A stretch of 64,000 nt of DNA, taken from an uncultured Photobacterium sp. (GTDB lineage Bacteria > Pseudomonadota > Gammaproteobacteria > Enterobacterales > Vibrionaceae). The notes below the pieces were generated by a model. That model did not search any database, had not been told where the DNA came from, and was given only the letters and a program-made list of their open reading frames with translations. The stretch is taken from the NCBI RefSeq assembly GCF_947039875.1, contig NZ_CAMRAN010000010.1, positions 1 to 64,000 on the forward strand, given 5' to 3'. Positions 45,382-64,000 of this stretch are shown here, in pieces. The position numbers and the translations under genes are program-made. Numbering within the stretch: the stretch's first letter is position 1; each line of letters opens with the position of its first letter.

Positions 45382-45474
45382 ATGGCGGAAGAGGCAGGAA
45401 TTGAACCTACCAAAGCTTATACAGCTCACATCGGTTTTGAAGACCGAGAAGGCCACCAGACCTCATCTCATTCC
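45382..45474 (-). tRNA. selC: tRNA-Sec (UCA), selC
   Basis: A 93-nt minus-strand gene begins GGAATGAGATGAGG and ends CCTGCCTCTTCCGCCA, with CCA encoded. Sec-specific features are visible: anticodon UCA in CTTCAAA, a 6-bp D stem with a 4-base loop (GAGGTC-TGGT-GGCCTT) and a long variable arm (GAGCT-GTATA-AGCTT). The acceptor is odd: the 5' side has eight bases (GGAATGAG), the 3' side only seven (CTCTTCC), and full pairing needs U5 to bulge. selA lies 60 bases downstream and an FNR-type promoter lies just upstream. Confidence 0.95.
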
Positions 45475-47524: not shown

Positions 47525-47560
47525 ATAAAAAAAACTTGCTTGATATAACATCAAGCAAGT
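47525..47560 (-). terminator. Terminator at the end of the DUF11 cluster
   Basis: The 10-bp stem acttgcttga / tcaagcaagt is followed on the minus strand by a run of eight T. It ends the 2193-aa/OmpA/919-aa operon. Confidence 0.9.
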
Positions 47561-47584: not shown

Positions 47585-50344
47585 CTAGTTATCAATACGA
47601 ACACTAAAGATAAGTTCTTCAGACTCACCAGGGGCGACACTTCCGATTGTTCCTATAATTGATCCCGTAGAACCATTAGCAATCGTATTAATTGAGCCCT
47701 TTGAAATACTCGGTAAAGACCCTGCTACATTAAATGTTGTATAAGCGGGTGTGGCATCGGTTAAGGTCACGTTACGTGCCTCTTCAATTGCAATATTCTC
47801 TGTTGTTAATCGATACATAATGCATTGGCCAGGTGCAATAGCAAAATTGGTGGTCACATAAACACCCGAATCTGATACACCATTACAATCTAAATCTGGT
47901 GTTTGTTCTTTCGTTACCTTCATATTTGTATTTGCAACTGTGGTGGTATCAATAATCTGCAATGTGCCACAACTTACCGTGGTTTCGACAGTCGTAATAT
48001 TATCCGTTCCCTGTGGTGTATTTGCAGGCACAAAGACCTTTATAAATAATACTTTCTGTGCGCCACCAGCAAGAGAAGCCACTGACGTTATCGCATTATC
48101 AGACCCTGTCAGTATATTATCGCTATCAGTATCTTCATAAATAACTGTAGAAAAACCAGCACCTGAATTCGCCACAGTCAGCAGAATATTTAAGAATTCA
48201 TCATTGGTGTTATTATTTAAAATATGTTTATAAACAATGCTTCCGCCAGCAAACGTTACACCATTTGAATTTGGAGGACCAAAGGCTAAACATTGATTAT
48301 TATTATCAACAGTCACAGCGTCATGTTTAATGTCTTCTGCGCCAGTTGTTGGGGAAAAGACTTTAAAATAAATATCTTGAGTGATAGATTCTGCGTCTGC
48401 AGGAACGGTTACATCGGCATAAACAACGACCGCATCATCAGGACCTAATACTGGAATATTGGTAATGACTTCATTCTCAGCATTTTTAAACACAACAGTC
48501 CAATCTGCTGGCATGGTATTGACCGCAAAATTTGAGCCACTGTATTGCAACTCATAACTTTCAGCTGCATCTGACTTATTAGTTACGTATAAAGTAAACC
48601 GAGTGGTTGCACCAGGTAACGCAGTATTTGTTGTAACAGCCGCAGCTTCAGGACCTGCACCATAACCACAATTATCGTCAACGGCATCACAGCTATCTTC
48701 AACTGTTAGCCCCGTTTCTGCTCTCACATTATTAGTTAAATCAACGGTACTCACGACTATTTCTCCCAAACGGTCAATAACAGTATTTGTTTTCGAGGTA
48801 TCGTTTGACGATCTTGCACGTTTAACCGTCTGGTATGGTCCACCTATAGCTGAAGCAGGAAGGGTTGCAATCAATATGACTTTATATCCACACACTCCAT
48901 TACTGTCAGTCACTAAGTATGATGGACAGGTTTCGCCTGCTGCAGGAATAACGCCTGTATCTGGATTACTGTCATTATCAGTATCTATTAATGGTGTTAC
49001 ACCATCACTTTTATATAAGAAGAAGCTAGTACCACTTGGAAATGTGGAAGATTCAATAGTGACATTAAAAATATCTTCATCATTACCCGTATTCCAGATG
49101 TAATTGGTAAAACTAACACGAGCACCTTGCGAGGCGGATGCTATCTCAACAATCTCATGATTAGTGTCATCAAGTGCATCACAATTATTATCGGTACCAA
49201 CATCACAGCCACCATTATTAGCAATAACCGCATAATTAGACGTAATTAGAAATGGCACTCTATTAGTATTGGTTGAATCTAACTCACCTGTATCAACAGT
49301 ACCGTTATTATCTTCATCAAAACCATAAATACCTTGGTTATACAATGTTGTTGCAGAAAGGCCTGAATCGATATTAACTTCAAATGTTATCGTCGCTGAT
49401 TCATCAGCCGCTAAACCATCCATTACAAATTGAATTTCATCATTATCAGGACAAGATGCATTAGGGGCAATACAGGTTGTAAATGCTAAATCTTGATCAC
49501 CAGTCGTTTCACTGCCACCAGTTGTGATACCTGAAGCCGTTATTGTTGTTCCTGATAAACTCCAAGATACCGCACCATTAAATCGCATCCCTTCAGGCAA
49601 AACATCATTTAAAATTACGCCATTCGTCTGTAACGGATCCATATCTGTAAGACCAACATTCGTGTATGTAAATGTTACCGTATGCGGGCCGCTTGGTGAC
49701 GCACCAACATTGGCACTTAATGCTTTCGAAATTTCAACAATCGGTAAATTGGTTGCTGTTACAGTATCAGTATTGGTCTGTGTTCCCACTCCACCATTTG
49801 CCACAGAAATACCATCAACACTTACCGCTTGGCTGGTTGCTGTCACTGTTAGCGCATCCGATGAATTAATTGTCGCAGCAGCATCAATATCAGCCACAAT
49901 AACAAATTCAAAACTTTCACCTGCTGCTAGAGGACCAATTACAGAACCTGAAGCTATTGGTGATGAACCAGGATCAGCAACACCGTCGTTATTTTCATCA
50001 GGATAAATAGTTGCAGCACTAATAACAGAAGCTGGCATCACAACATCAAGTACAAAAGAATCAGTATTATTACCAGTATTCGTTAATACATGATTGAATG
50101 TCACCGTTCGACCAGGAGCACCTAACTTCGATTGATCATTAATCAATGTCAGTGCTGCAACAGGTTGAACAAGGGTTTCAACTAAATTGGATGTTGTGCT
50201 ACGTAAAATATTGGCACTATCTCGATACGTAGCACCAGCTTGATTTTTAATCACTGTACCAGATTCAGTTAAGGCCATTACAGCGAAGCTGGCACTAGCA
50301 ACAACGGTTATACCTATTTTGGCGATTCCCTTGAAGACATTCAT
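47585..50344 (-). CDS. Large secreted DUF11-repeat protein, 919 aa
   Basis: A signal peptide (to about residue 25, ...FAVMA) precedes the motif ESGTVIKNQAGATYRDS shared with two other proteins of this cluster. Serial DUF11/Ig-like modules follow, each with a TNTGN-type strand (VTFNHVLTNTGNNTDSF first). Asp-rich loops such as DENNDGVADPG, DEDNNGTVDTG and DTDNDSNPDTG look like calcium sites. The protein ends on the strand ELIFSVRIDN with no anchor, LPXTG or barrel. The ribosome site GGGGGAG is strong, and it lies 17 bases after the OmpA-like gene. I infer an extracellular or surface-bound structural protein. Confidence 0.85.
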   Translation of the reverse strand: MNVFKGIAKIGITVVASASFAVMALTESGTVIKNQAGATYRDSANILRSTTSNLVETLVQPVAALTLINDQSKLGAPGRTVTFNHVLTNTGNNTDSFVLDVVMPASVISAATIYPDENNDGVADPGSSPIASGSVIGPLAAGESFEFVIVADIDAAATINSSDALTVTATSQAVSVDGISVANGGVGTQTNTDTVTATNLPIVEISKALSANVGASPSGPHTVTFTYTNVGLTDMDPLQTNGVILNDVLPEGMRFNGAVSWSLSGTTITASGITTGGSETTGDQDLAFTTCIAPNASCPDNDEIQFVMDGLAADESATITFEVNIDSGLSATTLYNQGIYGFDEDNNGTVDTGELDSTNTNRVPFLITSNYAVIANNGGCDVGTDNNCDALDDTNHEIVEIASASQGARVSFTNYIWNTGNDEDIFNVTIESSTFPSGTSFFLYKSDGVTPLIDTDNDSNPDTGVIPAAGETCPSYLVTDSNGVCGYKVILIATLPASAIGGPYQTVKRARSSNDTSKTNTVIDRLGEIVVSTVDLTNNVRAETGLTVEDSCDAVDDNCGYGAGPEAAAVTTNTALPGATTRFTLYVTNKSDAAESYELQYSGSNFAVNTMPADWTVVFKNAENEVITNIPVLGPDDAVVVYADVTVPADAESITQDIYFKVFSPTTGAEDIKHDAVTVDNNNQCLAFGPPNSNGVTFAGGSIVYKHILNNNTNDEFLNILLTVANSGAGFSTVIYEDTDSDNILTGSDNAITSVASLAGGAQKVLFIKVFVPANTPQGTDNITTVETTVSCGTLQIIDTTTVANTNMKVTKEQTPDLDCNGVSDSGVYVTTNFAIAPGQCIMYRLTTENIAIEEARNVTLTDATPAYTTFNVAGSLPSISKGSINTIANGSTGSIIGTIGSVAPGESEELIFSVRIDN

Positions 50345-50361
50345 ATGAAGCTCCCCCTTCC

Positions 50362-50883
50362 CTATTGTGCGCTAGAATGACTAGCCACTGAGTTGTATTG
50401 CATACTAACCGGATTGAAATCGTCACCTAATAAAATAAGTTGTGTGCGGCGATTTACTCGATTGTTTGTTTTATTATTCGAAACAATAAACGGCTCTCTT
50501 GAACCAGAAGCTAATGTCACGATACGGTGTACAGCAAGCCCTTGGCGTTGTAAATAATTTGCAACAACGTCAGCGCGTGCTTTTGCTAATTGGTCGTTAT
50601 ATTCTGCTTTCCCTGAATTATCAGCAGAACCAATAATAGCAATATTTAATCTAGGATTAGATTTCAATAATTTTACAGCTTGATCTAATGCATGTTGTTG
50701 TTGTGCATCTAGCAATTTTTTATCAAAATCAAAATTGACAACGGTCGGCCAATAATGTCCTTCAAGAACAGTTGTTGTACTGCTACAAGCAAGATCACCA
50801 TAGTCGGCATAAATAGCTTCATTAGAAACACAGCCTGAAATCCCTACACTTAAAAATAATAAAGAAGTTGTTAATAATTTCAT
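50362..50883 (-). CDS. OmpA-like peptidoglycan-associated lipoprotein
   Basis: This 173-residue protein has a lipobox (MKLLTTSLLFLSVGISGC, Cys18) and a C-terminal OmpA domain. The domain shows VNFDFDKKLLDAQQQHALDQ near residue 50, IIGSADNSGKAEYNDQLAKARADVV and NRRTQLILLG, including the conserved Asp and Arg that hold diaminopimelate. It should tether the outer membrane to peptidoglycan. I chose the ATG at 50883, with GAGGAA upstream. It is 17 bases from the genes on both sides, within one operon with the barrel and DUF11 proteins, which suggests it anchors that apparatus. Confidence 0.9.
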   Translation of the reverse strand: MKLLTTSLLFLSVGISGCVSNEAIYADYGDLACSSTTTVLEGHYWPTVVNFDFDKKLLDAQQQHALDQAVKLLKSNPRLNIAIIGSADNSGKAEYNDQLAKARADVVANYLQRQGLAVHRIVTLASGSREPFIVSNNKTNNRVNRRTQLILLGDDFNPVSMQYNSVASHSSAQ

Positions 50884-50900
50884 GATTACATTCCTCACCA

Positions 50901-53900
50901 CTATTCGCTTAACCAACCAAATAAGTCTTCATCAAGCTTAAACATCATTTCAAAATAAAAACCTTGTAAGTTATAACCTTGTGGGTCGAGGTCATCATCA
51001 TCAAAACCTATTACGTTATAACCAATACCTGCACGTAGATTTTTCATAACAAGATAGTTTAAACCGACACCGAAAGAATAACGGCGACTATCAAACCAAT
51101 CAGTGCCTAACATGCCACCATGCACATCAAGGTCCCAACGACGGTTAATATAATAAATTACGCGGCCATCAATAATTGTTGCTACAGAATCATAGTCTTG
51201 CTCATATTCAGTGAAATCCTCCCACTTCAGCCCAACACGTCCTGATATTGTCCAATCTGGCGATAGTTGATAATTCTGGTGGGTAGATAAAATATGTGCT
51301 GTACGTGTGCTGTCATTACGCTCTGTTTTCCACTCATAAGCACCTAACATATGGTAACGATTGCTTAATCTAGGGCGATATGCAAAGCCTAAACTGAAAT
51401 GATTACTCCATGTGTTTTGTGCATTTTCTTTATCAATATAGCGGTATTCTTCACGTACAAGCCCACTCCAATCTTGACTCAAGCGCGTGACCCAGGCGCC
51501 CAAAATGCCATAATAATCTTCAGTATCACCGTGACGATATTCTATACGGCCCGTGGTTTTATAATTAGGATTACGTACATCAGCTAAACCTAATGACACC
51601 GCGACACCAGAGGTTCCTTCGCCTTCAATAACTTCAACATATTCAATTGCAGGATCAACACTGATACCGGGAATTACTTCAAACCGGCCACGATAACCAT
51701 TAGCTAGCTCAAGGCTACGACCATCTGATGCACCACGTTGTCTAAACTCATTAAACGTACTACCACCATGGAGCCAATCAACATCGATACCAGCCGTAAA
51801 TAAGCTTGTTGAACCACTGCCTAAATTACTAATGCCGTCTAAAGAATCAATATACTCATATTGGGTATATATGCTGGCTTGCTTATGTACTTTCCAATCT
51901 GCTTTTACATTAAAACGACGCTTACTATCATGACCAAAACTCTGCTCATATTCAGTGTCTAACCGACCAGGACGTCCCCACAAACTAAATGTACGACCCA
52001 GCCCCACAATTGCGGTGGTATATTCTTCTGAATCTGTTTCGGTTTCATTTTTAATATAACGAGAGCCTAAACGTGTTACCCATTGAGAGCCCAAAATCTT
52101 GCTATCTACGGTTGCCCCAATAGACTGTTGCTTTTCTTTATGCGCTAGAGATTCAGAATGACTGGCTTCAATGTTTAGGTTCATTAACCCTGTTAACTTC
52201 TGACGATGGCGAAGACGAAGCTCTTGACGAGCTGGCGTTACACCACCAGTAGAATTAGTAAACCCTTCTTCTGCATAAACATATTCAAGTTCAGTCGCTG
52301 CTTGAGCGTGCCAATCACGATTAAGTCTAAGTTTATATGCCATACCATTTTTAAGTTTTTCCTGAGTGTCAGTAGTTAACGTACTGGCACTTTCATCCCC
52401 CTTATGGGACATACTCGCAACAGAAGCTGTTATTTGCGTTTTATTATCAAAATCATAGTTAACCCAAAGGCTACCAATGTCATAACCTTCAACATCATTG
52501 TCGTTATATTCGTAGCTCAAACCGGCAAGTAAATAAGGGGTGAATAAATAAGAGAGTCTTGCACCTGCAACGGTATAAGCATCACCATCACCATCCACAT
52601 CATAGGCGACTCTCACTTTGATAGGATTGAGATTAGAATCGTAACTTGGAATAACACGATTAAATCGTATATCGCCCGAAAAATAGTCAATAGTATAGTC
52701 AATATAACGGGTTAATAGCTGCTGATTTAGAACAAGACCTGTATTATCTCTGTCATACGTAACCAAAGTTACCGTATCAGAATGACGCACAATGCGTGTG
52801 TCCCCGATACTATAAAACATTGCAGTACCGTTACCATTAAACTCAATCACTTTATGTAAATCTTCAGGACGTGCACCATATAATTGTGCGGTAATTTTCC
52901 CATCGTTATACATACTATTGAAGCCATTAAGGATCTGACTTGTACGTCCAATATCAGACTCATCAGTTCCATCTGCGGTACTATAATCACCCCACATTGC
53001 AAAATGGCGTTCTTTTTCAAGTTTCACATAGAGCTTACTGGTACTACGAGCATCATAACCTTTAATACTTGCATCACCTGGAATTGGGTAATAGCTGTCT
53101 GGTGATATTTCGCGATAAAATTCTTCATCAGACTTGTCACTGTCATAACTTAACGTTAAATGCATACCACCTTTAATATTACCTTTAATAAAGGCGGCGG
53201 CTCTTTCGTCATGACTATAGGTTTTATTTTCATAACCGTCTAATTGAGCAGGTGGTCTTTCTCCACTAAAGCGGCCATAGCGTCCGGTATAATTTACAAT
53301 ACCTGAGACAAATAATGGACGTTTAGCTGCAATTTGATAAAGTTTAATTTTGTCAGAGAAGTCTTCAACTGACGCTTGGATATTAATTTGGCCCGTATTT
53401 TCAGTACTGCGTAAATAAACGGTTTTTTCACCATTAATGACACGAACCTGATGACCTGTTTCATTCTCTTGAATATCAGGATCTAACCAAGTATCACCTT
53501 GATCTGTATCTAGCGTTACAAAGTAAGTACCACGTGCCAAATTATTATTTTCATCGTACAACTTAATAATAACAGGAATAACAGAACGACCACCGTCAGC
53601 ACGTAATACATCACCATCAGCGACAACACTTATACGTTTTGCAGATTTTGGATGAGAGAACGTTTTTCCTAAAACAAGACGCTCGTTACCAAATGGATCA
53701 ACTGTTTTAATTTCAACAACGTTATCGCCATCGTCTAATGGAATACCATACCAACCAACAATTTGAGCATTCTCGCGTTTATTTATAATACGCTCGCCTA
53801 ATTGATCAACATTGATTGCATTACCATTAACATACAATGTTGGTTCAACATCACCTCGAATAACGGCAATAAAACGACCATCATAGCTATAATCATTGGT

Positions 53901-56900
53901 TGGCCAATACCATGCCCCTGATTCTGCTTCTGCGCGGGTAATATTCTTCGCTTCACTTTCAGGCAATGGAATAACATCTTGTAGAATATTATCAATTCTA
54001 AACTTAGCTTCTTTCGGAATGTTATTGTATGCCGTTGGTACAATTTCAGTTTTAATTTTGTAAAGCGATAATGCCGTTCTCAAAACATTAAGCTTTTCTT
54101 GTGAATCACTAAAGCCAAAACGAATGGATGATAATTTATCAGTGCTTGGATAAATATAAGCCTCATCTTGTACTGATTTTGGATATAACGTGATCATACT
54201 CGCAAGATCTTCGTTACTACCTTTACGTGACTCTAATGCATAACCTTTAAATACAGTTAAAGAGGAAGTAGATGCTGGCGTTTGAGAAGCATTGTCAGCA
54301 GCGGTTGACGGCCCACTAATAACGCCAGCTTGTAATTCATCTGCTTTTAATGCTTTTGGTTTGGCATCATATTGCAACCCTTTAAAATTCTCTGCTGTTT
54401 TAAATAACCAATCACCATTTATATTTGTATTTCTTTCTTTTAATTCTTGATAAACCGCTTCTTGATTTTCTACCGGACATGGCGCGACAAAATCAGCACG
54501 ATGCATTTCACCACGTCGCATATCAACAAATCGAGAATCACCTTTTCCTGCATTACGTGTATCTGTTGGTTCTAATTCAATACCTAAAGGTAGGGTTTGT
54601 TTGTCAACTTTCATGACATGATTACCCGCCTTAACGCCGAACATTGAATACTGACCATTTTCATCAGTGATAACATAATCACCGGTTTCTAAATATATTT
54701 TCACTCCACCAATAGGCCACATCTGATTTTTCATAATGTCGTTACACTGTGCATCGACAAAAACCTTACCAAAAATAATGCCTCTCTCTGACATCACGCC
54801 CGTTTGGGTAACCTTAACTTGGTATTTATCAATATTAGAAGTAAGACGGGAATCCGTAGTACCACCAAAGGTCGCTGCATTAACATAAACAGAGTTGATA
54901 CCATCTGAATCTATAGCACCTGCTGTTAGTTGCAAAACATAGGTTAATTTATAGCTACCATTTTCAGGCGGTTGTGTACTGCCATTTAATGTCCCAATAT
55001 CAAAACGATATGTATAAGTATCAATACGTACTGGATCTTTATAAGGTTGATCATTTAATCGAGTACTGCCTTCCATATATTTAAAACCATATGGCATTGA
55101 ATCAAAAACTTGTGCATCAAATAATTGACTGTCTGGTAGGTTATTTTTAATCGTTACTGAATATTTAACGAAGCTACCAATTTCTGCGTTATCTTTATCA
55201 GCATCTTTTTGAATGGTTAATCTACGATCTAAACTTTTGGGGTCTAGCGGTATATCAAACGTATCAACCCGATCTCTAACAGTTATCGGGAATAAACCTG
55301 AATTTTCAAGATCTTCATTTCCATATGGCCCATATGACATAGGCATAACATTGTGAATGTTAAAATTCGCTAAAGTTGTATAAGCAGATGGCCATACATG
55401 TGTCTGTGGTGGCTCAACCGAAATATAATATTGATTACCATCAATGGGTGCTAATTTAGGAAATAACACACGACCATCAACATCTGATACCACTTCAGCA
55501 ACAGGAGTGAGACCATCAACATTAGGCACTCGTATTTTCGCCGTCGGTGCTACATTATTTTCTGTTTGATAAAACTTCACTATCGCATTTTCTACACCAT
55601 TAAAATTGGTCGCATCAAAAACAACAAATTGAGGGCTTATATAAGCCAAATCTGTCAGAATGATTCGGTTATTGTTGTTAGGATCAAAGACTTCAATCAC
55701 TAATTCATCATTTGGATTTGACTGAATTTCACAGTCTACGGCAGTTGAACCATTAAGACCAAAACCTGTAAAGTTAATTGTACCATCAATATTCGATAAC
55801 AATTCTGTACGAGTAATTTCACCTGTACGCCATGGAATAGCAATATCTTCTAAACAGTGGTTACCCCCAGGGCGAATATAATTATCTTTTGGTGATACCG
55901 CATGCACAGGAATAACACTTCTGAAAATACCAGTGTTAGGCCCTGTTTCAGCAAAAATCCAATAAAAAGAATCACCTTCCGTTGAACGTAATGTCACGGG
56001 GTAATTAGAAGAACTTGGGCCAATAATATCAATCGTTGACGCATGTTCATTACCTTGAGGAAGGATAATTTGAGCATGAATACCATCAAATTTTGAATCA
56101 AACCCAGTTGAACTTGAATGATAATAAAAGTTTGTTGGAATAAAATGCTTATGCTCACTGTATAAAATAGTAAAGTCACTATTTGGGTCTAATACAGTAT
56201 CGTCAATAAGTTCGAAATCAATTAAATTATCTTCTTCTTTACCTACTAACGTATTACATACTTCACCACTTCTAGAGATATTTTCAGCTGTTGACGATAA
56301 GTTAACTTCTGCTTCACTGTATATTTTAAATGGTACGGTTCCACGTACATCATTAACTTGTGCATAATAAGTAAAATGTCCTGATGTATTTGGCTTCATA
56401 TAATCAGGTTTAACTAAAAAACCCACCTTTTCTACATTACCTGATCCATCCCAAGAGCTATATTCATACCAATCTAAATTATGGTCATCTTGTTCAAAAA
56501 TAAAATTATTATTAATTCCGACTAATACCACACCGCCATCAAAATTGTATTCAGGAGAAATTAAGGTTATTGGTGAATGATCTTTAGCAGGCTGGCCATT
56601 AATCACTTTATCTTGTAATAAAGAAATATTAGCAGGAAGCTTTACTGAAATTAACACACCAGTATGGCTAACTTTCACTTGTGAGCCTGCTGCTTCTGAT
56701 TGAACAAAAATATTATACGGCAGTGCTGCCGATTCAGGCTTGGTGCGACCAACACTGGTATAATTTACTCTAAAATCAATTTCTGAAAGCGATGTTACTT
56801 GCTGTTGACAAATAGGTGAATTTTCAATGTTTAAATTAACGATAGGTCCATCAATCACGATAATTTTAGTCGTGCTTGTTTTTTCAACTGAAAGATCATT

Positions 56901-57482
56901 GACTGATGTAACAACAGCAGCAAGATCATAGAAGTCATTGTTTTTATCTGTTGCTGGAATCTCAACCGTATAAACAAGATTAATAAATTCACCTGGTTTT
57001 AGTTGATCAATAATATATTTGCCATCGCTATTTTTATTAAGCTCAGGTTCGCCTGGATCATGAATACCATTACCATTAGTATCAAAATATATCTTTATAT
57101 TGTCTGCATTCGGTGATGTAAGATCCCCATTATCATCAGTTAGATTATTAACATTAATAATATAGCTATCTTTAATATTACCAGTATTAGTTACTGTGTG
57201 AGGAATACTAACAATAGAACCAGGTGAAACATTTTTTTCTGTCTTATTATCTCCCGATGTATCAGGTGATAATGAAACATCATATACTTTTTCAACTTTA
57301 ATATGGGATATATTCGAAAGTACTCGAATATTCTCACCCGTCGTTGAGTCAAAATAAGTCATGATGGCCTGATTCATTATTTTTGTACCAGCATTAGTTA
57401 ACCCAAAAACTGTTGAACTCACACTTAATAATATAAAAACAATGAGGTACTTCATTTTAGTTATTACATCTAAGAGGGCCAT
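50901..57482 (-). CDS. Giant Ig-like/DUF11 protein with C-terminal outer-membrane barrel
   Basis: This roughly 2193-residue protein has a signal peptide, then the shared motif NAGTKIMNQAIMTYFDS and several DUF11/Ig-like modules. One begins LTIQKDADKDNAEIGSF near residue 752. A SdrD-B/Cna-B-like module (GKVFVDAQCND...TDENGQYSMFGVKAGNHVMKV) lies near 900-1000 and another Ig-like region runs to about 1385. From there to the end, alternating aromatic strands look like a large beta barrel, ending GFYFEMMFKLDEDLFGWLSE. GGAGAG before the ATG at 57482 decides the start; ATG 57455 would give a shorter signal. It is probably an outer-membrane anchor or pore displaying an Ig-like stalk. Confidence 0.85.
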   Translation of the reverse strand: MALLDVITKMKYLIVFILLSVSSTVFGLTNAGTKIMNQAIMTYFDSTTGENIRVLSNISHIKVEKVYDVSLSPDTSGDNKTEKNVSPGSIVSIPHTVTNTGNIKDSYIINVNNLTDDNGDLTSPNADNIKIYFDTNGNGIHDPGEPELNKNSDGKYIIDQLKPGEFINLVYTVEIPATDKNNDFYDLAAVVTSVNDLSVEKTSTTKIIVIDGPIVNLNIENSPICQQQVTSLSEIDFRVNYTSVGRTKPESAALPYNIFVQSEAAGSQVKVSHTGVLISVKLPANISLLQDKVINGQPAKDHSPITLISPEYNFDGGVVLVGINNNFIFEQDDHNLDWYEYSSWDGSGNVEKVGFLVKPDYMKPNTSGHFTYYAQVNDVRGTVPFKIYSEAEVNLSSTAENISRSGEVCNTLVGKEEDNLIDFELIDDTVLDPNSDFTILYSEHKHFIPTNFYYHSSSTGFDSKFDGIHAQIILPQGNEHASTIDIIGPSSSNYPVTLRSTEGDSFYWIFAETGPNTGIFRSVIPVHAVSPKDNYIRPGGNHCLEDIAIPWRTGEITRTELLSNIDGTINFTGFGLNGSTAVDCEIQSNPNDELVIEVFDPNNNNRIILTDLAYISPQFVVFDATNFNGVENAIVKFYQTENNVAPTAKIRVPNVDGLTPVAEVVSDVDGRVLFPKLAPIDGNQYYISVEPPQTHVWPSAYTTLANFNIHNVMPMSYGPYGNEDLENSGLFPITVRDRVDTFDIPLDPKSLDRRLTIQKDADKDNAEIGSFVKYSVTIKNNLPDSQLFDAQVFDSMPYGFKYMEGSTRLNDQPYKDPVRIDTYTYRFDIGTLNGSTQPPENGSYKLTYVLQLTAGAIDSDGINSVYVNAATFGGTTDSRLTSNIDKYQVKVTQTGVMSERGIIFGKVFVDAQCNDIMKNQMWPIGGVKIYLETGDYVITDENGQYSMFGVKAGNHVMKVDKQTLPLGIELEPTDTRNAGKGDSRFVDMRRGEMHRADFVAPCPVENQEAVYQELKERNTNINGDWLFKTAENFKGLQYDAKPKALKADELQAGVISGPSTAADNASQTPASTSSLTVFKGYALESRKGSNEDLASMITLYPKSVQDEAYIYPSTDKLSSIRFGFSDSQEKLNVLRTALSLYKIKTEIVPTAYNNIPKEAKFRIDNILQDVIPLPESEAKNITRAEAESGAWYWPTNDYSYDGRFIAVIRGDVEPTLYVNGNAINVDQLGERIINKRENAQIVGWYGIPLDDGDNVVEIKTVDPFGNERLVLGKTFSHPKSAKRISVVADGDVLRADGGRSVIPVIIKLYDENNNLARGTYFVTLDTDQGDTWLDPDIQENETGHQVRVINGEKTVYLRSTENTGQINIQASVEDFSDKIKLYQIAAKRPLFVSGIVNYTGRYGRFSGERPPAQLDGYENKTYSHDERAAAFIKGNIKGGMHLTLSYDSDKSDEEFYREISPDSYYPIPGDASIKGYDARSTSKLYVKLEKERHFAMWGDYSTADGTDESDIGRTSQILNGFNSMYNDGKITAQLYGARPEDLHKVIEFNGNGTAMFYSIGDTRIVRHSDTVTLVTYDRDNTGLVLNQQLLTRYIDYTIDYFSGDIRFNRVIPSYDSNLNPIKVRVAYDVDGDGDAYTVAGARLSYLFTPYLLAGLSYEYNDNDVEGYDIGSLWVNYDFDNKTQITASVASMSHKGDESASTLTTDTQEKLKNGMAYKLRLNRDWHAQAATELEYVYAEEGFTNSTGGVTPARQELRLRHRQKLTGLMNLNIEASHSESLAHKEKQQSIGATVDSKILGSQWVTRLGSRYIKNETETDSEEYTTAIVGLGRTFSLWGRPGRLDTEYEQSFGHDSKRRFNVKADWKVHKQASIYTQYEYIDSLDGISNLGSGSTSLFTAGIDVDWLHGGSTFNEFRQRGASDGRSLELANGYRGRFEVIPGISVDPAIEYVEVIEGEGTSGVAVSLGLADVRNPNYKTTGRIEYRHGDTEDYYGILGAWVTRLSQDWSGLVREEYRYIDKENAQNTWSNHFSLGFAYRPRLSNRYHMLGAYEWKTERNDSTRTAHILSTHQNYQLSPDWTISGRVGLKWEDFTEYEQDYDSVATIIDGRVIYYINRRWDLDVHGGMLGTDWFDSRRYSFGVGLNYLVMKNLRAGIGYNVIGFDDDDLDPQGYNLQGFYFEMMFKLDEDLFGWLSE

Positions 57483-57523
57483 AAGCACTCTCCAAAGGCT
57501 AGTAATTCAAAGATATGGATATA

Positions 57524-57607
57524 GGCTTATTGAACTTACTTGATTTAATTATTTTCAAATATATTTAAAATAAGCTCAATAAGCCCCCCTACAAGGTAGG
57601 GAGGGCT
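57524..57607 (-). promoter_or_regulatory. Alternative hairpins in the leader of the 2193-aa gene
   Basis: agcccccctac / gtagggagggct (57582-57607) is a GC-rich hairpin that could end the upstream 1088-aa gene but lacks a proper T run. The 10-bp repeat ggcttattga / tcaataagcc (57524-57533 with 57576-57585) shares four bases with it, so the two pairings exclude each other. This could be an attenuator or a processing site; function is unproven. Confidence 0.4.
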
Positions 57608-57622
57608 AAGTTCTATTTACTC

Positions 57623-60600
57623 TTAATCAATTTTCACTACAAAGTTACCAACCGCTTTGTCACCAGGAACAAGTGTTCCTACAGTAAAGGTAACAGTGTC
57701 ACCGCTTACCGCACCAGTAACGTCAGCACCAGTAGTACCATTAGGGTTACATAAAGGACCTAAATCATCAGTCTCTAAAGGATATGTTGCATCAGCAAGT
57801 GCTACAACAGTGCCTGAATCGGTCGTATTACGACAACTTACTAAGCTACCACCCGCATGAAATTGAGAGTACTCAGTTAATTGGTCTGTAATAACTGTAT
57901 TTAGCGCATTAGATGTACCTTCATTAACAGCAATCAGTTTCCAAACAACACACTGTCCAGGTTCAACATTTGTCGTTTGCTCTTTTAAGAAGGTCTTATC
58001 AGTATCAGCAACACCATCACAATCAGTATCTAAATCAGCATACTTATAAAGACGGACCTGACCTTTAACAACTTCTGAATTATCTTGACCTTGAGCAGTG
58101 ACTGTTGGATCTGTTGTTGATACAGCAGTAATTGTTGTTAGGTTATTTGTACCAGATGTTGCATCTGTTGGTGCAAATACAGTGACTTCCATTGGAATGG
58201 TTTCACCAGGTTCTAACGTTAGTGTTGGAACTGTATCTGAGCCATCTGTTGCATCACACGTAACTTCTACACTTACAGTAGAACCATCCGCTTGCTGCAC
58301 AATAATTGGTGTCGTTACAGGATCATCACATAAGTTACCAACTTCAGTATCAGGCGTACCATCACCATCAGTATCAACAGTAATTGTATTATTAAATCCA
58401 GTCATATTATTGCCTGAACTTAAATCAACGGTTTCAGTTGTATTACCATTGTTACCTAACGTGTGGTCGTAAGTAACACTACCACCTGGTTCGATTTGGT
58501 TGCTTAATGATGCTGGCGTAATATCAATACTTGCATCAGTTGCGACATCAAATGCTTCAACCTTACGGTTAGATGCATTAGATGCGTCTGATGTAGCAAC
58601 AAGTGAAATGATATAATCCATATCACCATCACTATTAGCATCAATCGCTGCCGTTTGATCACTATCAGCTAAAGCTTGAGTTGGATCTGATGGAATAGTA
58701 ATTTCAGCATTGACCCATAATACAGCACCTGCTGGAATAGTTGGTGTCGATGTAATAACATTGCCTGTTGCAGCAATATCTACCGTACCATCTGCATCAG
58801 TATCAATACCATTATGCTTGAATACTACAGTCCAGCCCGTTGGTAATGCTGTTTCCCAACTTGCGCCGTTATAACTACCTTCTGCACTTAATAGGAATGA
58901 ATCTGAACTACCGCCTTCATTAGCAATATAAATAGGTGCTATAACTGTTGAACCTAAAGGCTCATCATTAAAGACAGTTGCTACATCTGCGCTAGTAAGA
59001 ACGCCACCCGCAAGAAGCACAGGATCGACATCTACAGCAGGATCAATAGTAGTAATTGGTGTATTAGCAATATCAACAGTAGGGCCTGTAATATTATCTA
59101 ACCGCTCAGTTTTACTATCAGTCTTAGTTGCATCATTGAAAGAAGTTGCCGTTGTTGTTGCTTCAAATGGTGTTGGAGAATCAGCAGCATCTGATGGCAG
59201 ATTGGCAACGACACGGAACAATGTCTCATTACAATTGACAGTAATACCATCAATAGTTACAGCTGCATCGATACATGTAGAAGGATCAATAGGACCACTA
59301 TCAGGTGTTACATTACCATTAGTATCAACAAGTTGTGCTGAACCATCCGCATTCCAATATTCAAATGTTGTTCCTGTTGGAAAGCTAACATTTGCAGTCG
59401 AAAGATCAAAGCTATCGGTAGTATTACCGCTATTAATGATCTTGTTATAGAAGAATACTTCACTACCAGCAGCAGCTGAATCTACTGTCTGAATATTATC
59501 ATCAGTACCATCAGAGTCACCACCACCTGATGTTCCTGTTTCAGTACCAGTATCAGTAATACCTACACCAGTAGTCGTCGTTGTAGTGGTTGTGGTTGGA
59601 TTTGATGGATCGGGACCTGCAGTTGTAGGATCTGGATCATTACATTCACCAGCATCATCGTAATCACCATCACCATTAAGATCTGAACATGAATAAGCAA
59701 CGTTACCTATTTCGGTATCGCCCATCATTGTCTCAGGAGAATATGCTACATAAAAAGTCATGGAGATCGTTGTATTTGACGCTAATTGATCATCAACAGC
59801 ATATACACCAGGTACTGCAGTATCGGTTGTATTACCGTTACTATTAAGATCTAAGCCACCATCAATTTGATTTTCAGCGGTATCATTAGTGCCATCTTGG
59901 TCTAAATCAACACCATGTGTAGATTCATCAACTAAATTAGCTGCAAAATCAATGGGTGTATCACCATTAACAGTTAACAAACCACTGCTTGATGCATCAT
60001 ATAGCCCACCAGTACTACTCGCGACATATACTGTTCCTTCAGGAATACCATCAAAGATAACCACATCTTTAGCATCTGTATTACCCGTATTTGAAACAGT
60101 CACTGTGTAGCGAATTAAACTCAATTCTCGGTTAGTACCGCCATCCCCGTCTAAATCAATACCTAAAGCGGTTTCCGTACCAACATTCTCTAAGTGCGTC
60201 GCTGATTTGGTAATATTAACCACAGCATCGTTAGTCACTGTAATTAATGATGCGTTAGTATCAGGTAAGGCATCATTGTTATCACCAATATCAGTGACAG
60301 AGCCATTAACAGGAGAAGCAGTACCATCATGAGCTTCTGCTTCTAATGTCACACCAAGTGTATCACCAGGAACGGCTGTTGTAGGCACTGCTGCTGCAAG
60401 CATTAAGTTCATTTGCTCACCAGCATTTAGAGTAACAGTATCACCAGAAGTAAATTCGGTTTCACCCGCATCTGGTTGACCATTATTATTTGCATCATTG
60501 AAAAGCTTCAATGTGGCAGCATCAATCGTATCCGTTCCTCGTCCATCAGTTCCTGGAAGATTCTGCGCAAATGTCAATGTATAAGTATCAGCACCATTAC

Positions 60601-60889
60601 CAGTATTGGTTAATACATGAGGTAAATATACAGTTTGACCAGGAGAGCCAGTAGTATTGAGATCCTGCTCAATCGTTGCACTATAAATCTGAGCTACAGT
60701 TACAACCGCTTCATTAGATGTCGCGGTGTAACTATTTCCAGATTCATCTTCATAGGTTACTGTTGCTAAGTTTTTAATATCAGTTCCGGCGGCAGTAGCT
60801 GCAAGGGCTTGACTAGATAGTAAACCTGCACCTACCGTTATGAGTCCCGCCGCAACCCATACACTTATAGGTTTTAAATGCGTATTCAT
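57623..60889 (-). CDS. Large secreted DUF11-repeat protein, 1088 aa
   Basis: A signal peptide (MNTHLKPISVWVAAGLITVG...ALA) is followed by AAGTDIKNLATVTYEDE, the motif shared with the 919- and 2193-residue proteins. DUF11/Ig-like modules then run the whole length. Calcium-type loops abound (DLDGDGGTN, DLNGDGDYDD, DTDGDGTPDTE, DTDCDGVADTD). A linker of nine threonines followed by a Gly/Asp-rich stretch lies near residue 435. The end is GNFVVKID with no anchor. I chose the ATG at 60889 because AAAAGG precedes it; an ATG eight codons upstream lacks a ribosome site. It is an acidic structural surface protein by inference. Confidence 0.85.
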   Translation of the reverse strand: MNTHLKPISVWVAAGLITVGAGLLSSQALAATAAGTDIKNLATVTYEDESGNSYTATSNEAVVTVAQIYSATIEQDLNTTGSPGQTVYLPHVLTNTGNGADTYTLTFAQNLPGTDGRGTDTIDAATLKLFNDANNNGQPDAGETEFTSGDTVTLNAGEQMNLMLAAAVPTTAVPGDTLGVTLEAEAHDGTASPVNGSVTDIGDNNDALPDTNASLITVTNDAVVNITKSATHLENVGTETALGIDLDGDGGTNRELSLIRYTVTVSNTGNTDAKDVVIFDGIPEGTVYVASSTGGLYDASSSGLLTVNGDTPIDFAANLVDESTHGVDLDQDGTNDTAENQIDGGLDLNSNGNTTDTAVPGVYAVDDQLASNTTISMTFYVAYSPETMMGDTEIGNVAYSCSDLNGDGDYDDAGECNDPDPTTAGPDPSNPTTTTTTTTTGVGITDTGTETGTSGGGDSDGTDDNIQTVDSAAAGSEVFFYNKIINSGNTTDSFDLSTANVSFPTGTTFEYWNADGSAQLVDTNGNVTPDSGPIDPSTCIDAAVTIDGITVNCNETLFRVVANLPSDAADSPTPFEATTTATSFNDATKTDSKTERLDNITGPTVDIANTPITTIDPAVDVDPVLLAGGVLTSADVATVFNDEPLGSTVIAPIYIANEGGSSDSFLLSAEGSYNGASWETALPTGWTVVFKHNGIDTDADGTVDIAATGNVITSTPTIPAGAVLWVNAEITIPSDPTQALADSDQTAAIDANSDGDMDYIISLVATSDASNASNRKVEAFDVATDASIDITPASLSNQIEPGGSVTYDHTLGNNGNTTETVDLSSGNNMTGFNNTITVDTDGDGTPDTEVGNLCDDPVTTPIIVQQADGSTVSVEVTCDATDGSDTVPTLTLEPGETIPMEVTVFAPTDATSGTNNLTTITAVSTTDPTVTAQGQDNSEVVKGQVRLYKYADLDTDCDGVADTDKTFLKEQTTNVEPGQCVVWKLIAVNEGTSNALNTVITDQLTEYSQFHAGGSLVSCRNTTDSGTVVALADATYPLETDDLGPLCNPNGTTGADVTGAVSGDTVTFTVGTLVPGDKAVGNFVVKID

Positions 60890-60939
60890 AAAGTGGTTAC
60901 CTTTTAAGGTCATTAATTTAATTACGATGTGTATAAATA

Positions 60940-60958
60940 CCCTTGCAAAAACGCAGGG
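60940..60958 (-). other. Short GC-rich hairpin between 160-aa and 1088-aa genes
   Basis: cccttgc / gcaggg flank an A-rich loop without a following T run. It may modulate the ratio between the small and large DUF11 proteins by mRNA processing. Confidence 0.35.
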
Positions 60959-60977
60959 CGGTACATTTACTTAACGT

Positions 60978-61460
60978 TTATTTAACTTCGATGCGATAAG
61001 CAAAAACTTGTTTTTCCTTAGCATTAATAGGTGTTAATGGTATCCAACGAACTGCGGTATATTTTTCAGGTGGAATAATAATCTCAACTTTTTTTCCATC
61101 TTTCATTATTTCGCGTTTCACTGGCTCTTCTTCAAATGTTTTACCTCCATCAATACTAACTAAAAAATTCGATTTAATTTTTGTGTTACTTGTATTGGCA
61201 ATATAAAAAGTATTTTCAGGAATAGGTCCTGTAATAATTAAGCCATTCAAAGGCTTTTCGCTATTATTTGTGTAAGTTAACTTATATTCGATTTTATCTT
61301 TTGGTACGGCTTTCTCTGCTTTTACTAATTTTTCCTCTCCTTTATTATTTACTTCAACTATATATGCATCCATTTTACTTACTAGTAAGTTATCATCTTC
61401 CGCATAAACAGAAAAAGACATCATCAAACAGCCAATCACTATCAATAATAAATTTTTCAT
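60978..61460 (-). CDS. Small periplasmic DUF11-like protein, 160 aa
   Basis: This 160-residue exported protein (signal MKNLLLIVIGCLMMSFSVYA) has one DUF11-like domain. IEYKLTYTNNSEKPLNGLIITGPIPENTFYIANT is the classic 'x-Y-x-x-x-x-x-N' strand pair, and the sequence ends KQVFAYRIEVK. Unlike its giant neighbours it is Lys-rich rather than acidic. I chose the ATG at 61460 behind GAGGTG. It lies 88 bases before the 1088-aa gene on the same strand, so it may be a chaperone-like or subunit partner of the DUF11 proteins. That role is speculative. Confidence 0.82.
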   Translation of the reverse strand: MKNLLLIVIGCLMMSFSVYAEDDNLLVSKMDAYIVEVNNKGEEKLVKAEKAVPKDKIEYKLTYTNNSEKPLNGLIITGPIPENTFYIANTSNTKIKSNFLVSIDGGKTFEEEPVKREIMKDGKKVEIIIPPEKYTAVRWIPLTPINAKEKQVFAYRIEVK

Positions 61461-61873
61461 ATTACACCTCATCCTTTATGATCCATGAAACATATATAAT
61501 GCGATAAGCATGCCAATAAAATATTTTTTTATGCGATTAAAAAACAACAAGTTAATGATGTGTATTTATTTAAAAAGCAAAATAGAAAATTAATTATAAT
61601 TTTGCGAATCATTATTTAAATGCGAAATAAAAAGTCAAAAACAAAATTAAAAATATAAAGTTATAACTATCGAACCATAAGATAATGTTTTTAAAAGTAG
61701 AACATTTTACATAGCGTGTATTATAAAAATAACAACTTAACTTAAAATAAATCCAACATCAATTTCTTACGTAAAAACGATTATTAAACATCAATTTGTT
61801 TGATAATTTTATTGGCTAATTTCTTAATTAAACAACAACTGTTTTATATTTAACACATACTACATTTATCAAT
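61461..61873. other. AT-rich promoter region of the DUF11 cluster
   Basis: About 410 bases without a gene lie upstream of the 160-aa gene. The word ATGCGA recurs at about 61499, 61532 and 61620, and near the first copy ATTATATATG on the minus strand could be a -10. I see no named regulator site. Confidence 0.4.
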
Positions 61874-61914
61874 GTAAAAAAGAACCATGTCGATATTTTA
61901 TCGTATGGTTCTTT
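61874..61914 (-). terminator. Terminator of the partial GEVED/DUF11 gene
   Basis: The stem aaagaaccat / atggttcttt with inner pairing gata/tatc is followed on the minus strand by TTTTTT. It isolates the right-edge gene from the 160-aa gene. Confidence 0.88.
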
Positions 61915-61939
61915 CCTAAAATATTAGCCAATGATGATA

Positions 61940-64000
61940 TTATTTTATTTTTATTAAATAAACAGCTGTTCCTTGATCTCCTGGAGCTAAAGCGCCCGTC
62001 ATATTCCAGCGCACCTCCCCTTCATAATCTACAATATTTGCCCCATTAGTAGTAACAGGTATACAAGTGAGTGACGTTGGCACATTACCCGAGGTACAAT
62101 CTATTGCTTGAGAGAGCCCCGTATAACTTGGCGTACTATCAAAAATACTTAATTCAGTTAGATCACCATCTCCAACGTTAGTAAAGGTTATAACGTATTC
62201 CAATATATCCCCAGGACGGCCATTATTACTCACTCCAACAGCCGTTCCTTGAGTAATATTTCGTACCGTTTTCTCCAGCTTTAACTCGCCGGCACCACGG
62301 AACGTCGCTCTGATGGTGTCTTTATCTAACACTTGACGAGCAATACCGTGTCCTGTTCCCGCACTATCACTAAAGATCATATCTGCTGCTATATCATAAT
62401 GATATTGAGCATTGAGCGAAGCATTCGCTGGCACAAACACTTTACTGAGTAAACATACTGCTGTATTACCATTTACTACTGTCGGATTAATAACTTGAGC
62501 ATCCACACCATCTATTATTCCATTACAATTATTATCTAAATAAAGAATGGTACTCCAACCGTCATTTGCTGGAGCAACCTCTGGATTTATAATGGAAAAG
62601 TTCACACTTCCCGAGGTTGCAGCAGTAAACTTATGTGGGAATAATACTGCCTTTCCAGGTTCAACTTCACTGAAATTATCAGGCTCCATTCTTGGCTCAC
62701 GTACCTTACCAAAATCAAGACCACTGATATCATCCCCCGCACTGGCGTTAACAGCCATCTGACTATCAATCACACTGGTACTGGTCACTTGTGGGATCGC
62801 AGTGACATTAGCTTCACTGATATCAATCCAATCTGCTTGTTTAATCACATCTAGTAGTAAGTTTTTACCTGAGAAATCCACACCCAGAATAAATTTATAG
62901 CTACCATCACCCGATGTAATGTCCGTGGCTATCACATCACCCGTCGTCACTCCCGTAACACCAGCATCATTAAACGTTACGGTAACAGTAAAGTTACCTA
63001 AACCTATTTCAGTGCCGTCTTGAATACCATCATGTGCTGCTATTGCGCCACCATTATCTTCAAACACCACGCCATTTAAAACAATCCGATTGAGCAATTC
63101 AAATAAATGATCTTCGACTTCACCATCAACGGCTGCACCATCAAACGTATTACAACTGTTAGCGGCTGAACATAAACGTACTCGCATTACAGTATTACCA
63201 TTAAACCCTTCTGCACTAGCGGCATCTAACGTTATTGCTATATTATTATTTCCTGCTGTAACAGCTTGATCATTAATTAATAATTCATTGCTATCAGCAA
63301 AATCACCATCATTATTTAAATCAACCCAAATACTCACAAACCCATTACCCACTACTTGAATCGGTAATGTGGTGCTGGTTTCTACAATAATTTGAGCGGG
63401 AATATTCAGATCCTCATCATCCTGCCCATGGGTATCATCCCCCGTTGCATCGGCACTGATCCACTGTGTAAATTCAGGATCCCAACGAGAGCCAAGCGCT
63501 AAATCAGCCACACCATCTAATGTCGCATCTAAATAAGCATGGCTAGCTTGGCCATATGTTGCAGCTGCATCACCATAATCGGTCGAATCATAACAACCAG
63601 CACCATCATTACCTTGCAAACTACTATTATTTGACGCTACAACAAACTCTATTTCAGCGGTTATTACATTGATGCGATAGACTACAGCACGCTCATTTAA
63701 GTCAATAATCCCATCTTGATTTGAGTCATGATTTCCGCCATTAGTCATGGCATACAAATTAATAGAGTTATCCATAATCAATGCCCCCGCTTGTAATTTC
63801 CCATTCGAATCCACAGTCGGTTTACCACTAAGATAAATCAAATCCTGACTGATAATACTGCCGGTATTAAGATCAACCTGATATAACTTCTCACCTCGTA
63901 AATCAACAAGATAGGCTTGTCCATTTTGACTACTTATGGCCAAATCTGCACCTACATCAATAACAACACCAGTAAAGGAGTCATTCATGGCACTAATATC
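61940..64000 (-). CDS. Large GEVED- and DUF11-domain surface protein (partial, N-terminus off window)
   Basis: About 686 C-terminal residues are visible, and the frame stays open to the right edge, so the real start lies outside. The visible order is propeller-like strands ([20 protein letters not shown]), a GEVED domain ([15 protein letters not shown] ... [12 protein letters not shown]), a SdrD-B-like segment ([16 protein letters not shown]), an Ig-like segment with [12 protein letters not shown], and a DUF11 domain ([25 protein letters not shown]) ending AVYLIKIK. Calcium-type loops ([25 protein letters not shown]) are present. It is probably part of the same surface system, in its own transcript. 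Confidence 0.85.

Follow-up and report, generated by a model that had tools for sequence, protein, structure and literature searches.

How could proteins as different as a lectin-bearing giant, a very large barrel protein and an OmpA lipoprotein, encoded side by side in a Photobacterium genome, work together? In the 64,000-nucleotide stretch of DNA analysed (the window), ORF calls confirmed six consecutive minus-strand genes within 47585..64000, as an earlier note on this DNA had claimed, and all features given below lie on the minus strand. Five of the genes form an operon encoding a 164-aa exported single-DUF11 protein (60978..61472; wrongly given as 160 residues in that note), a 1096-aa protein (57623..60913), the barrel protein, here called BIG (50901..57488; 2195 aa from a GTG, 2193 aa if started at the ATG two codons later), an OmpA lipoprotein (50362..50883) and a 919-aa protein (47585..50344). 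The operon ends after the 919-aa gene in a strong intrinsic terminator (47534..47560; RNA fold -14.4 kcal/mol, z -4.92), and promoter-like sites, identified by consensus match only, lie 5' of it (61593..61638). The gaps between the BIG and OmpA genes and between the OmpA and 919-aa genes, read from the sequence, are both 17 bases, exactly as previously reported. Two giants are encoded upstream: the sixth ORF (61940..64000), cut by the window edge, is the C-terminal part of a 2995-aa protein, and further on, outside the window, the cluster includes a second giant, about 7600 aa long. DUF11 or TIGR01451 matches were found in five of the six ORFs (all but OmpA), some of them below the curated cut-off. 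The edge-cut protein, earlier described as a DUF11 protein, does contain DUF11, but the whole giant consists mainly of other domains (DUF4347, four GEVED and an L-type lectin).

The answer that we propose, and the new finding of this work, is an assembly logic predicted from DUF11 domains divided between protein ends. According to the structural report, DUF11 (CLIPPER) domains can contain an internal Lys-Asp-Asn isopeptide; in 9IFR, from an Acinetobacter silvestris adhesin, the bond joins Lys-715 to Asn-806, with Asp-748 as the presumed catalyst and beta-9 coming after it as the last strand (PMC12617251). The 919-aa protein contains one complete internal domain, which served as the unsplit reference (residues 200-374, 49223..49747; Lys207, Asp247, Asn336), and in 919-type proteins the triad lies within this single domain (Lys 60/61, Asp 60/61, Asn 61/61). 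The best PDB match of the 919-type internal-domain profile was 9IFR (E 8.1e-5); the alignment pairs Lys and Asp and stops short of the Asn strand, Asp lying 34 residues after Lys in this 9IFR alignment and 33 by the published 9IFR numbering. The C-terminal copy, or acceptor (residues 805-919, 47588..47932; Lys812, Asp863), matches Pfam DUF11 positions 11-84 of 114, and the protein ends where the match stops. In the AlphaFold2 (AF2) model the last acceptor strand spans residues 908-917, and the internal domain has two extra strands (333-342, including Asn336, and 363-367) where the C-terminal copy ends. The Pfam matches of this acceptor and of two tip proteins all stop at model positions 83-84, at the protein end, and an internal copy in BIG (residues 757-888, 54825..55220; positions 2-112) reaches 112; acceptors as well as internal copies match Pfam PF01345, in some cases at scores under the curated cut-off. 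Models and match ends support a predicted truncation of the C-terminal acceptor. In 919-type, 1096-type and giant-type proteins alike, the C-terminal DUF11 keeps Lys and Asp and the chain ends before the last two strands; these two strands, with Asn, form the N-terminus of 919-type, 1096-type and BIG proteins, right behind a signal-like stretch. In the window, the resulting donor hairpins were located by HMM at residues 28-62 of the 919-aa protein (50159..50263, Asn34) and, with the family HMM, at residues 39-78 of the 1096-aa protein (60680..60799, Asn48) and 30-68 of BIG (57285..57401, Asn39); the other acceptors lie at 57626..58000 (1096-aa protein) and 61943..62293 (2995-aa giant, weak Pfam matches). 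Two strands missing from the tail of one protein are present on the head of another, so the proteins appear to snap together, and the split halves give each a place in a chain.

To follow this division, a seven-row alignment and one peptide pattern yielded 221 relatives, of which the best 80 were kept as named loci; no BIG ORF was found in four of the 80, and these were dropped. Over the 80 named loci, 919- and 1096-type proteins carry both halves, giants and 164-type proteins the acceptor only, and BIG the donor only. With donor and acceptor profiles trained on these same loci and related sequences counted separately, a donor was matched in the first 130 residues of 60/61 919-type, 44/44 1096-type and 62/70 BIG proteins (the other eight BIG gave no match), and of 0/51 164-type proteins, 0/36 giants and 0/403 others. 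Donor and acceptor counts left out ORFs open at the relevant end, so that the Photobacterium giants are absent from these 36; the two giants of the window locus, checked separately with the donor profile, showed no donor, the N-terminus of the 2995-aa protein included. The key donor column held Asn in 104/104 links (in the 919-type alignment, Asn34 in 60/61 rows, the remaining row being gapped) and in 57/62 BIG. In the other five BIG donors it is replaced by His (L110, L112), Gly (L138, L139) or Ser (L164), so a Lys-Asn bond is impossible at those junctions; the giants of L110 and L112 also lack Lys and Asp. Among rows covering the acceptor Lys column (uncovered in 11/52 giants and 36/52 164-type rows), Lys and Asp occur together in 59/60 919-type, 46/46 1096-type and 37/41 giant acceptors, and Lys and Asp rank 4th and 3rd of 125 columns. 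This near-invariance, together with the constant link Asn, suggests selection for chemistry.

The halves also fit each other in sequence. Joining a donor to an acceptor tail improved the score of a whole-domain model by a median of 16.4-16.6 bits for links and tips (L101 left out), compared with 1.1-1.3 bits for shuffled donors and 0.6-1.0 bits for other N-termini. Acceptor-ended ORFs made up 201/345 of those in BIG's gene run versus 4/277 elsewhere; the four (L119, L141, L143, L157), one 161-aa protein and three large ones, belong to the same loci. A hydrophobic stretch, by a criterion of 9 of 12 residues, lies N-terminal to the donor hairpin in 59/60 919-type, 44/44 1096-type and 61/62 BIG proteins. 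Applied to internal domains, the donor profile gave few matches (18/141). A loose Asn pattern follows 44/46 internal domains in 919-type proteins, 11/12 in 1096-type proteins and 6/9 in giants against a background of 20%; in BIG it was found in 11/41, near that background, and in 164-type proteins in 0/5.

We propose, with a probability of roughly two in three, that split DUF11 (CLIPPER) domains let the proteins of this cluster assemble by themselves into a surface fibre or anchor. Each subunit's donor hairpin would complete the acceptor of its neighbour, so that chains would run from a tip (acceptor only) through one or more links (both halves) to BIG (donor only). In a more tentative step, modelled on the triad of the solved CLIPPER domain, acceptor Lys and Asp and donor Asn could form a self-catalysed intermolecular isopeptide bond, which would make the chain covalent without sortase. 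The large barrel would be the chain's outer-membrane anchor and possibly also its exit channel, and OmpA, separate or fused, would tie it to the peptidoglycan. The 164-aa protein, an acceptor fold with Gly82 at the position of the catalytic Asp, might, more speculatively, shield donor hairpins reversibly or cap the chain as a chaperone or cap; PDB sequence searches with this protein and with a giant's tail returned nothing useful. The best reading is thus one of head-to-tail assembly through donor hairpins, with giants at the tip and neither sortase nor usher, the chain probably being isopeptide-locked; from the arrangement of the halves we infer polymerisation, the covalent bond, the topology and the role of the 164-aa protein. 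The function is likely adhesion or aggregation via the lectin/GEVED giants. The broader proposal, that several diderm phyla build covalent fibres in which a C-terminal catcher (Lys, Asp) welds to an N-terminal tag (Asn), finally on the barrel, with the 164-aa protein as a dead-catcher chaperone that keeps the parts from linking too early, seems to us evenly balanced; such fibres would be a separate class of pilus-like assembly and a natural SpyTag/SpyCatcher.

The halves might also close within one molecule, circularising the 919- and 1096-aa proteins, or form non-covalent donor-strand joints in which the triad is inherited and inactive between chains. The presence of both halves on the links, the retention of the system despite loss of the donor Asn from five BIG proteins, and the absence of Asp from 48/52 164-type proteins all agree with this; circular closure, however, leaves the donor-only BIG and the acceptor-only giants and 164-type proteins without partners, and an inactive triad sits badly with near-invariant Lys and Asp and with the constant link Asn. 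We consider it unlikely, but the strongest of the alternatives.

The base of the proposed chain was examined by structure prediction. AF2 modelling of BIG residues 1100-2195 (mean pLDDT 80.9, pTM 0.69) gave 32 C-terminal strands of 10-17 residues with one short strand among them. Outer-membrane barrels, by title or known identity, made up 44/50 of the PDB matches listed by Foldseek for this model, with low TM-scores (0.03-0.32). OMP_b-brl matched at E < 0.05 in 8/19 barrel-region members, the window's own row not being among these, and searches of BIG and of its barrel against PDB sequences gave no match. Barrel and Ig regions could not be told apart by a hydrophobic-alternation scan, which was therefore not used. 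Model and matches support a C-terminal barrel with 32 or more long strands (residues 1381-2195, 50904..53348); the earlier note had claimed a barrel here and had named its absence from structure predictions as an argument against its own reading, and a barrel is what these predictions give. The OmpA-family peptidoglycan-binding lipoprotein (ATG at 50883, 173 aa) bears out its first description with a PF00691 match (3.6e-20) and the lipobox ISGC. Relatives carry the OmpA domain within the barrel protein itself, on the N-terminal side of the barrel. This position suggests a periplasmic location for much of BIG's N-terminal half, and its donor end may be periplasmic too. The arrangement renders the extracellular "stalk" described earlier doubtful.

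Such a barrel was initially read in terms of type IX secretion: the barrel would recognise the C-terminal DUF11 as a signal for secretion or sorting, the N-terminal hairpin would be only a leading strand, and no polymer would form. One C-terminal domain is indeed common to very different giants, and the barrel is very large, with SprA among the Foldseek matches and an OmpA partner present. We demoted this reading because of the donor, acceptor and junction results: it leaves unexplained why the tail stops short of the two strands that other proteins carry at the N-terminus and why the Lys-Asp-Asn triad is conserved across two halves, and BIG has no sequence match to PDB proteins. We now regard it as improbable.

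The gene set is conserved as a unit across loci. The multi-component envelope system around the barrel protein that had been claimed is supported, but that reading had missed the split halves and, as tips, the giants beyond the window. BIG was present in 27/30 genomes with a 164-type protein versus 52/369 overall, after removal of three of 33 such genomes (G325, G368, G394) in which the match falls within a long ORF; in a phylum sample the co-occurrence was 31/38 versus 56/398. At the level of sequence, the split homology of the DUF11 halves and this co-conservation are established. The same donor/acceptor logic recurs in further loci, where no donor was matched in the BIG of L082 and L084; for the most distant relatives of BIG (L087-L093, L097-L099), the search showed neither half. 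The distribution differs from the Vibrionaceae and Shewanellaceae in which the earlier note proposed to look: it takes in 17/52 Photobacterium genomes and other phyla, with one Shewanella (L113) in the best 80 loci. The gene set is common to a marine Photobacterium and many distant bacteria. The claim that sortase and usher are missing was upheld: in the organism's own genome (93 contigs, 99.97% complete), usher PF00577 and sortase PF04203 each gave 0 matches, with a positive E. coli control for the former and 3/14 control genomes positive for the latter. That this is an ordinary DUF11 adhesin cluster whose shared termini are duplication relics without a role in assembly is very improbable, for although DUF11 is common as an adhesin stalk domain (PMC12617251) and several cluster proteins are visibly related to one another, the halves partition clearly by protein class, across phyla and further loci, and the junction gain is specific.

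If the split-domain assembly is correct, diderm bacteria possess a self-assembling, perhaps covalent, surface structure needing neither sortase nor usher. A very large barrel family, so far uncharacterised, and many "DUF11 domain" proteins would then have a function, the anchoring of giant adhesins reaching about 7600 residues would be explained, and many organisms would supply natural tag/catcher pairs. A literature search, which did not extend to bioRxiv preprints and most subscription journals, found no paper on the operon or on split DUF11.

Compared with known systems, the proposed assembly shares features with several. Type Va autotransporters classically have an N-terminal passenger and a C-terminal barrel of 12 strands; here the predicted C-terminal barrel has 32 long strands or more, and the OmpA domain of relatives lies N-terminal to it. 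Type IX secretion combines a very large barrel, an OmpA-like partner and substrates with a C-terminal beta-sandwich, and SprA (8GL6, 6H3I) is among the Foldseek matches listed for BIG, but with low TM-scores and among many barrels, and no sequence relation of BIG was found against the PDB. In sortase pili the subunits are covalently isopeptide-linked, and SpyTag/SpyCatcher comes from an isopeptide domain that was split artificially; covalent isopeptide linking is predicted here as well, but no sortase was matched and the split is natural and in DUF11. Chaperone-usher pili assemble by donor strand complementation, in which the N-terminal extension of a neighbour fills a subunit left incomplete at one end; the tip adhesin has an acceptor only, the shaft subunits have donor and acceptor, the base differs and there is an outer-membrane barrel. 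The present system resembles them in its acceptor-only tip, both-half links, distinct base and predicted outer-membrane barrel. Complementation of this kind would suit its halves, which fit at sequence level by junction test and Pfam ends; it differs in its donor, a two-strand DUF11 hairpin, in a possible covalent lock and in the lack of an usher match in the genome. The CLIPPER domain of 9IFR, the top PDB match of the 919-type internal domain, belongs to the same family, but its bond lies within one chain, whereas the present system spreads the domain over two proteins. The report on the Sulfolobus acidocaldarius thread (PMC9715654) describes head-to-tail subunits with an N-terminal donor strand and a proposed intermolecular isopeptide, without known sortase, the bond running from the N-terminal amino group to an Asn two subunits away. 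The thread is archaeal, made of one subunit type and without outer membrane, but it shares with the assembly proposed here both the N-terminal donor strand and the proposed intermolecular isopeptide without a known sortase.

The cluster, carried by a genome of 3.96 Mb that its named relatives place in the genus Photobacterium, is transcribed from the minus strand in the order edge-cut giant, 164-aa exported protein (60978-61472), 1096-aa protein, BIG (the 2195-aa barrel protein), OmpA lipoprotein and 919-aa protein. As the earlier note had claimed, structural genes stand 17 bases apart, at both the BIG/OmpA and the OmpA/919 gaps; promoter-like sites precede the 164-aa gene, and a terminator lies 3' of the 919-aa gene, at the cluster end. 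Followed past the window edge, the cut giant has a full length of 2995 aa, with DUF4347, four GEVED, an L-type lectin domain and DUF11. Upstream of it and outside the window, an open frame of 7600 codons (G000:C10 71440-94239; L028, L180) encodes a second giant; a scan of 3428 of its residues showed nine GEVED stretches. Across the whole genome, the Pfam DUF11 model matched four sites at E up to 0.001, all inside the cluster. Immediately beyond the terminator, on the opposite strand, lies a gene for a Sel1-repeat protein (46342-47463). Of five Photobacterium genomes compared, four have this gene beside the operon, in one case reading as two ORFs, and the stretch from the fifth stops before reaching it. 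A tRNA-SeC (45383-45473) adjoins two genes (42033-45322) that resemble selenocysteine insertion genes; one or both adjoin the operon in 3/5 other Photobacterium genomes compared.

The cluster is one conserved system. The co-conservation of barrel, OmpA and DUF11 genes that the earlier note had proposed to look for was found: of the 36 Photobacterium genomes covered by both searches, 11 carry BIG and the 919-aa protein together and the other 25 carry neither, and gene order is identical in the first five other Photobacterium genomes compared. The 919-aa protein is in 17 of 52 Photobacterium genomes. Among the best 80 of 221 relatives, 42 loci hold the complete set within the fetched stretch, that is, BIG, a 164-type protein, a link (919-type or 1096-type) and a tip (a giant); BIG is alone in 10, 4 yielded no BIG ORF, and the remainder are incomplete by one or two classes, in many cases where a contig ends. 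The complete loci span Photobacterium, Alcanivorax, Halomonas, Granulosicoccaceae, Thiothrix, Geobacteraceae, Thermodesulfovibrionales, Gracilimonas, Verrucomicrobiaceae and Opitutaceae records, among others; a record from Gemmatimonadota (L179) and another labelled Akkermansia (L176) have BIG only. In a class sample of 369 genomes, BIG relatives were found in 52 and short 164-type ORFs in 30, 27 genomes having both (33 genomes matched the 164-type search, three only within long ORFs), and in a phylum sample of 398 the figures were 56, 38 and 31; the Fisher tests take no account of relatedness. BIG and 919-type protein distances correlate over 59 loci (r = 0.88; 0/999 permutations as high), which would also arise from shared descent alone. 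BIG, OmpA and DUF11 genes are also present on Acinetobacter haemolyticus plasmid p4 (CP085288.1, L181), typed mobilizable, where the DUF11 region 5' of BIG is annotated as several short pieces.

Most exported proteins labelled in the best 80 of 221 relatives have DUF11 as their last domain. With a profile of C-terminal DUF11 built from these proteins, 215 matches were obtained, 205 of them ending within 6 residues of the stop, and acceptor-ended ORFs make up 201/345 in the same-strand run of BIG versus 4/277 elsewhere. The Pfam DUF11 model shows that this C-terminal domain is incomplete: the alignment (114 model positions) stops at 83-84 where the protein ends (11-84 for the 919-aa acceptor, 2-84 and 2-83 for those of two tips), whereas internal copies extend further (2-112 in BIG, 4-104 in another); for the 1096-aa, 164-aa and 2995-aa acceptors and for two internal copies, the matches were partial and uninformative. 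What is absent is a hairpin whose residues follow I-x-N-x-A, then Y, then S-N. This donor hairpin was found at the N-terminus, directly after a hydrophobic stretch, in 60/61 919-type, 44/44 1096-type and 62/70 BIG proteins, and in 0/51 164-type, 0/36 giants and 0/403 other ORFs, presence counts that are partly circular since the profiles were trained on the same loci and related sequences were counted apart; the class partition, the positions and the junction test described below are less so. Both giants of the cluster showed no donor motif at their N-termini, and the second has an acceptor end as its C-terminus. Links have donor and acceptor, tips the acceptor only and BIG the donor only.

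In the junction test, a profile of the complete internal domain of the 919-type (20 sequences) scored acceptor tails alone or with a 48-residue N-terminal segment added, donors being taken from the same locus, the protein's own included. The median gain was 16.6 bits for 919 tails (152 pairs), 16.4 for 1096 (131), 16.6 for giants (128) and 11.1 for the 164-type (137), versus 1.1, 1.1, 1.3 and -0.4 with shuffled donors and 0.7, 1.0, 0.6 and -0.7 with the N-termini of other proteins. Gains above 3 bits were obtained for 97-99% of link and tip pairs and 93% of 164-type pairs, versus 20-22% and 2% with shuffled donors and 13-15% and 5% with other N-termini. The AlphaFold2 model of the 919-aa protein (52 sequences; mean pLDDT 86.3, pTM 0.58) agrees with this test: the predicted last two strands of the internal domain are 333-342, which includes Asn336, and 363-367, for which the C-terminal copy, ending in strand 908-917, has no equivalent.

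The complete DUF11 copy inside the 919-type has both parts in one chain. The best PDB match of its profile is 9IFR (E 8.1e-5), the solved structure of CLIPPER, a DUF11 domain in which a Lys-Asn isopeptide is formed with Asp as presumed helper (PMC12617251). Lys and Asp are paired, and the alignment stops short of the 919-type Asn strand; the paired Asp is 34 residues past Lys versus 33 in the paper's numbering, and the Lys-to-Asn spacing in 9IFR agrees with the paper. The triad is conserved in the internal domain (Lys207 60/61, Asp247 60/61, Asn336 61/61) and across the split halves of the 919-type (Lys812 60/61, Asp863 60/61, Asn34 60 and one gap). The donor Asn is present in 104/104 links and 57/62 BIG proteins; among non-164 acceptors, Asp is kept in 160/163 and Lys in 97% of 151 covered rows, the two ranking 3 and 4 of 125 columns by conservation. 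In the 164-type, Asp is found in 4/52, the position being mostly Gly or Leu, and the Lys position is variable. Twelve further loci, counted without L070, L071, L072 and L075 (same contigs as named loci), gave Asp 24/26 and Lys 14/14 covered rows for links and tips, and Asp 1/10 for the 164-type. Trp143 and Arg160 of the 164-aa family are invariant (51/51) and point to a putative binding site of its own.

Several BIG proteins depart from this pattern. The donor Asn is lost in L110, L112, L138, L139 and L164. In L110 and L112 (Photobacterium angustum and a close relative) it is replaced by His, and the giants encoded in these two genomes are without the acceptor Lys and Asp; this joint loss counts as a single event common to two sister genomes; it abolishes the bond there and hints that the BIG hairpin pairs with giants. 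No donor match was found in the BIG of L039, L079, L082 and L084, and BIG internal domains fit the Asn pattern poorly. Neither half was found in the farthest BIG relatives (L087-L093, L097-L099), possibly a one-partner form of the system; several of these have one very large protein beside the BIG relative.

The earlier note had placed a barrel in the C-terminus of BIG, then given 2193 residues, and the AlphaFold2 model of residues 1100-2195 (59 sequences; mean pLDDT 80.9, pTM 0.69) supports this predicted barrel, with 32 strands of 10-17 residues from about 1622 to 2185, one short strand interspersed. N-terminal to these are shorter-stranded domains, with some long strands too. Foldseek TM-scores were only 0.03-0.32 over the 50 matches listed, 44 of which we take to be outer-membrane barrels (SlpA, Mtr complex, LptD, SprA, TonB-dependent receptors), the others being glycosidases, apolipoprotein B and complement C5. 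OMP_b-brl matched 8/19 barrel-region relatives at E below 0.05, and the window's own protein gave no such match. In several relatives, Pfam places an OmpA domain inside BIG, N-terminal to the barrel (four scanned: L070 784-885, L082 485-587, L099 102-204, L077 912-1014), so OmpA belongs with BIG; in L071 and L072 (same contigs as L143 and L145) it is a separate gene adjoining BIG, as in Photobacterium. These fusions suggest that at least the OmpA-bearing part of BIG is periplasmic.

Because links have both halves, tips the acceptor only and BIG the donor only, we propose a chain in which links would connect a giant tip to BIG, the barrel serving as its anchor and OmpA tethering it. The inter-subunit bond is probably covalent. 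The 164-type, having acceptor sequence without the catalytic residues, might be a reversible shield or cap, which is our guess. In view of the OmpA position inside BIG, the chain may run outside the cell or may be drawn out through the barrel. Eight tips were scanned, two from the window's genome (one in part) and six of 36 complete tips. L-type lectin, CshA_NR2 or GEVED domains occur in five of them, which makes adhesion the likely function; the other three have only DUF11-like and SdrD_B-like domains.

The cluster was not recognised as a member of any assembly system tested. The defining tests of chaperone-usher and sortase pili both came out negative, with zero usher or sortase matches in its own genome and controls that matched. 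A search of mostly freely readable journals, bioRxiv preprints lying outside its scope, showed no paper that describes this operon or a split form of DUF11. The nearest published relatives are CLIPPER and the archaeal thread, in which a donor strand at the N-terminus joins the subunits, together with an isopeptide bond proposed to form between them (PMC9715654); in its proposed working, the cluster would resemble donor-strand pili.
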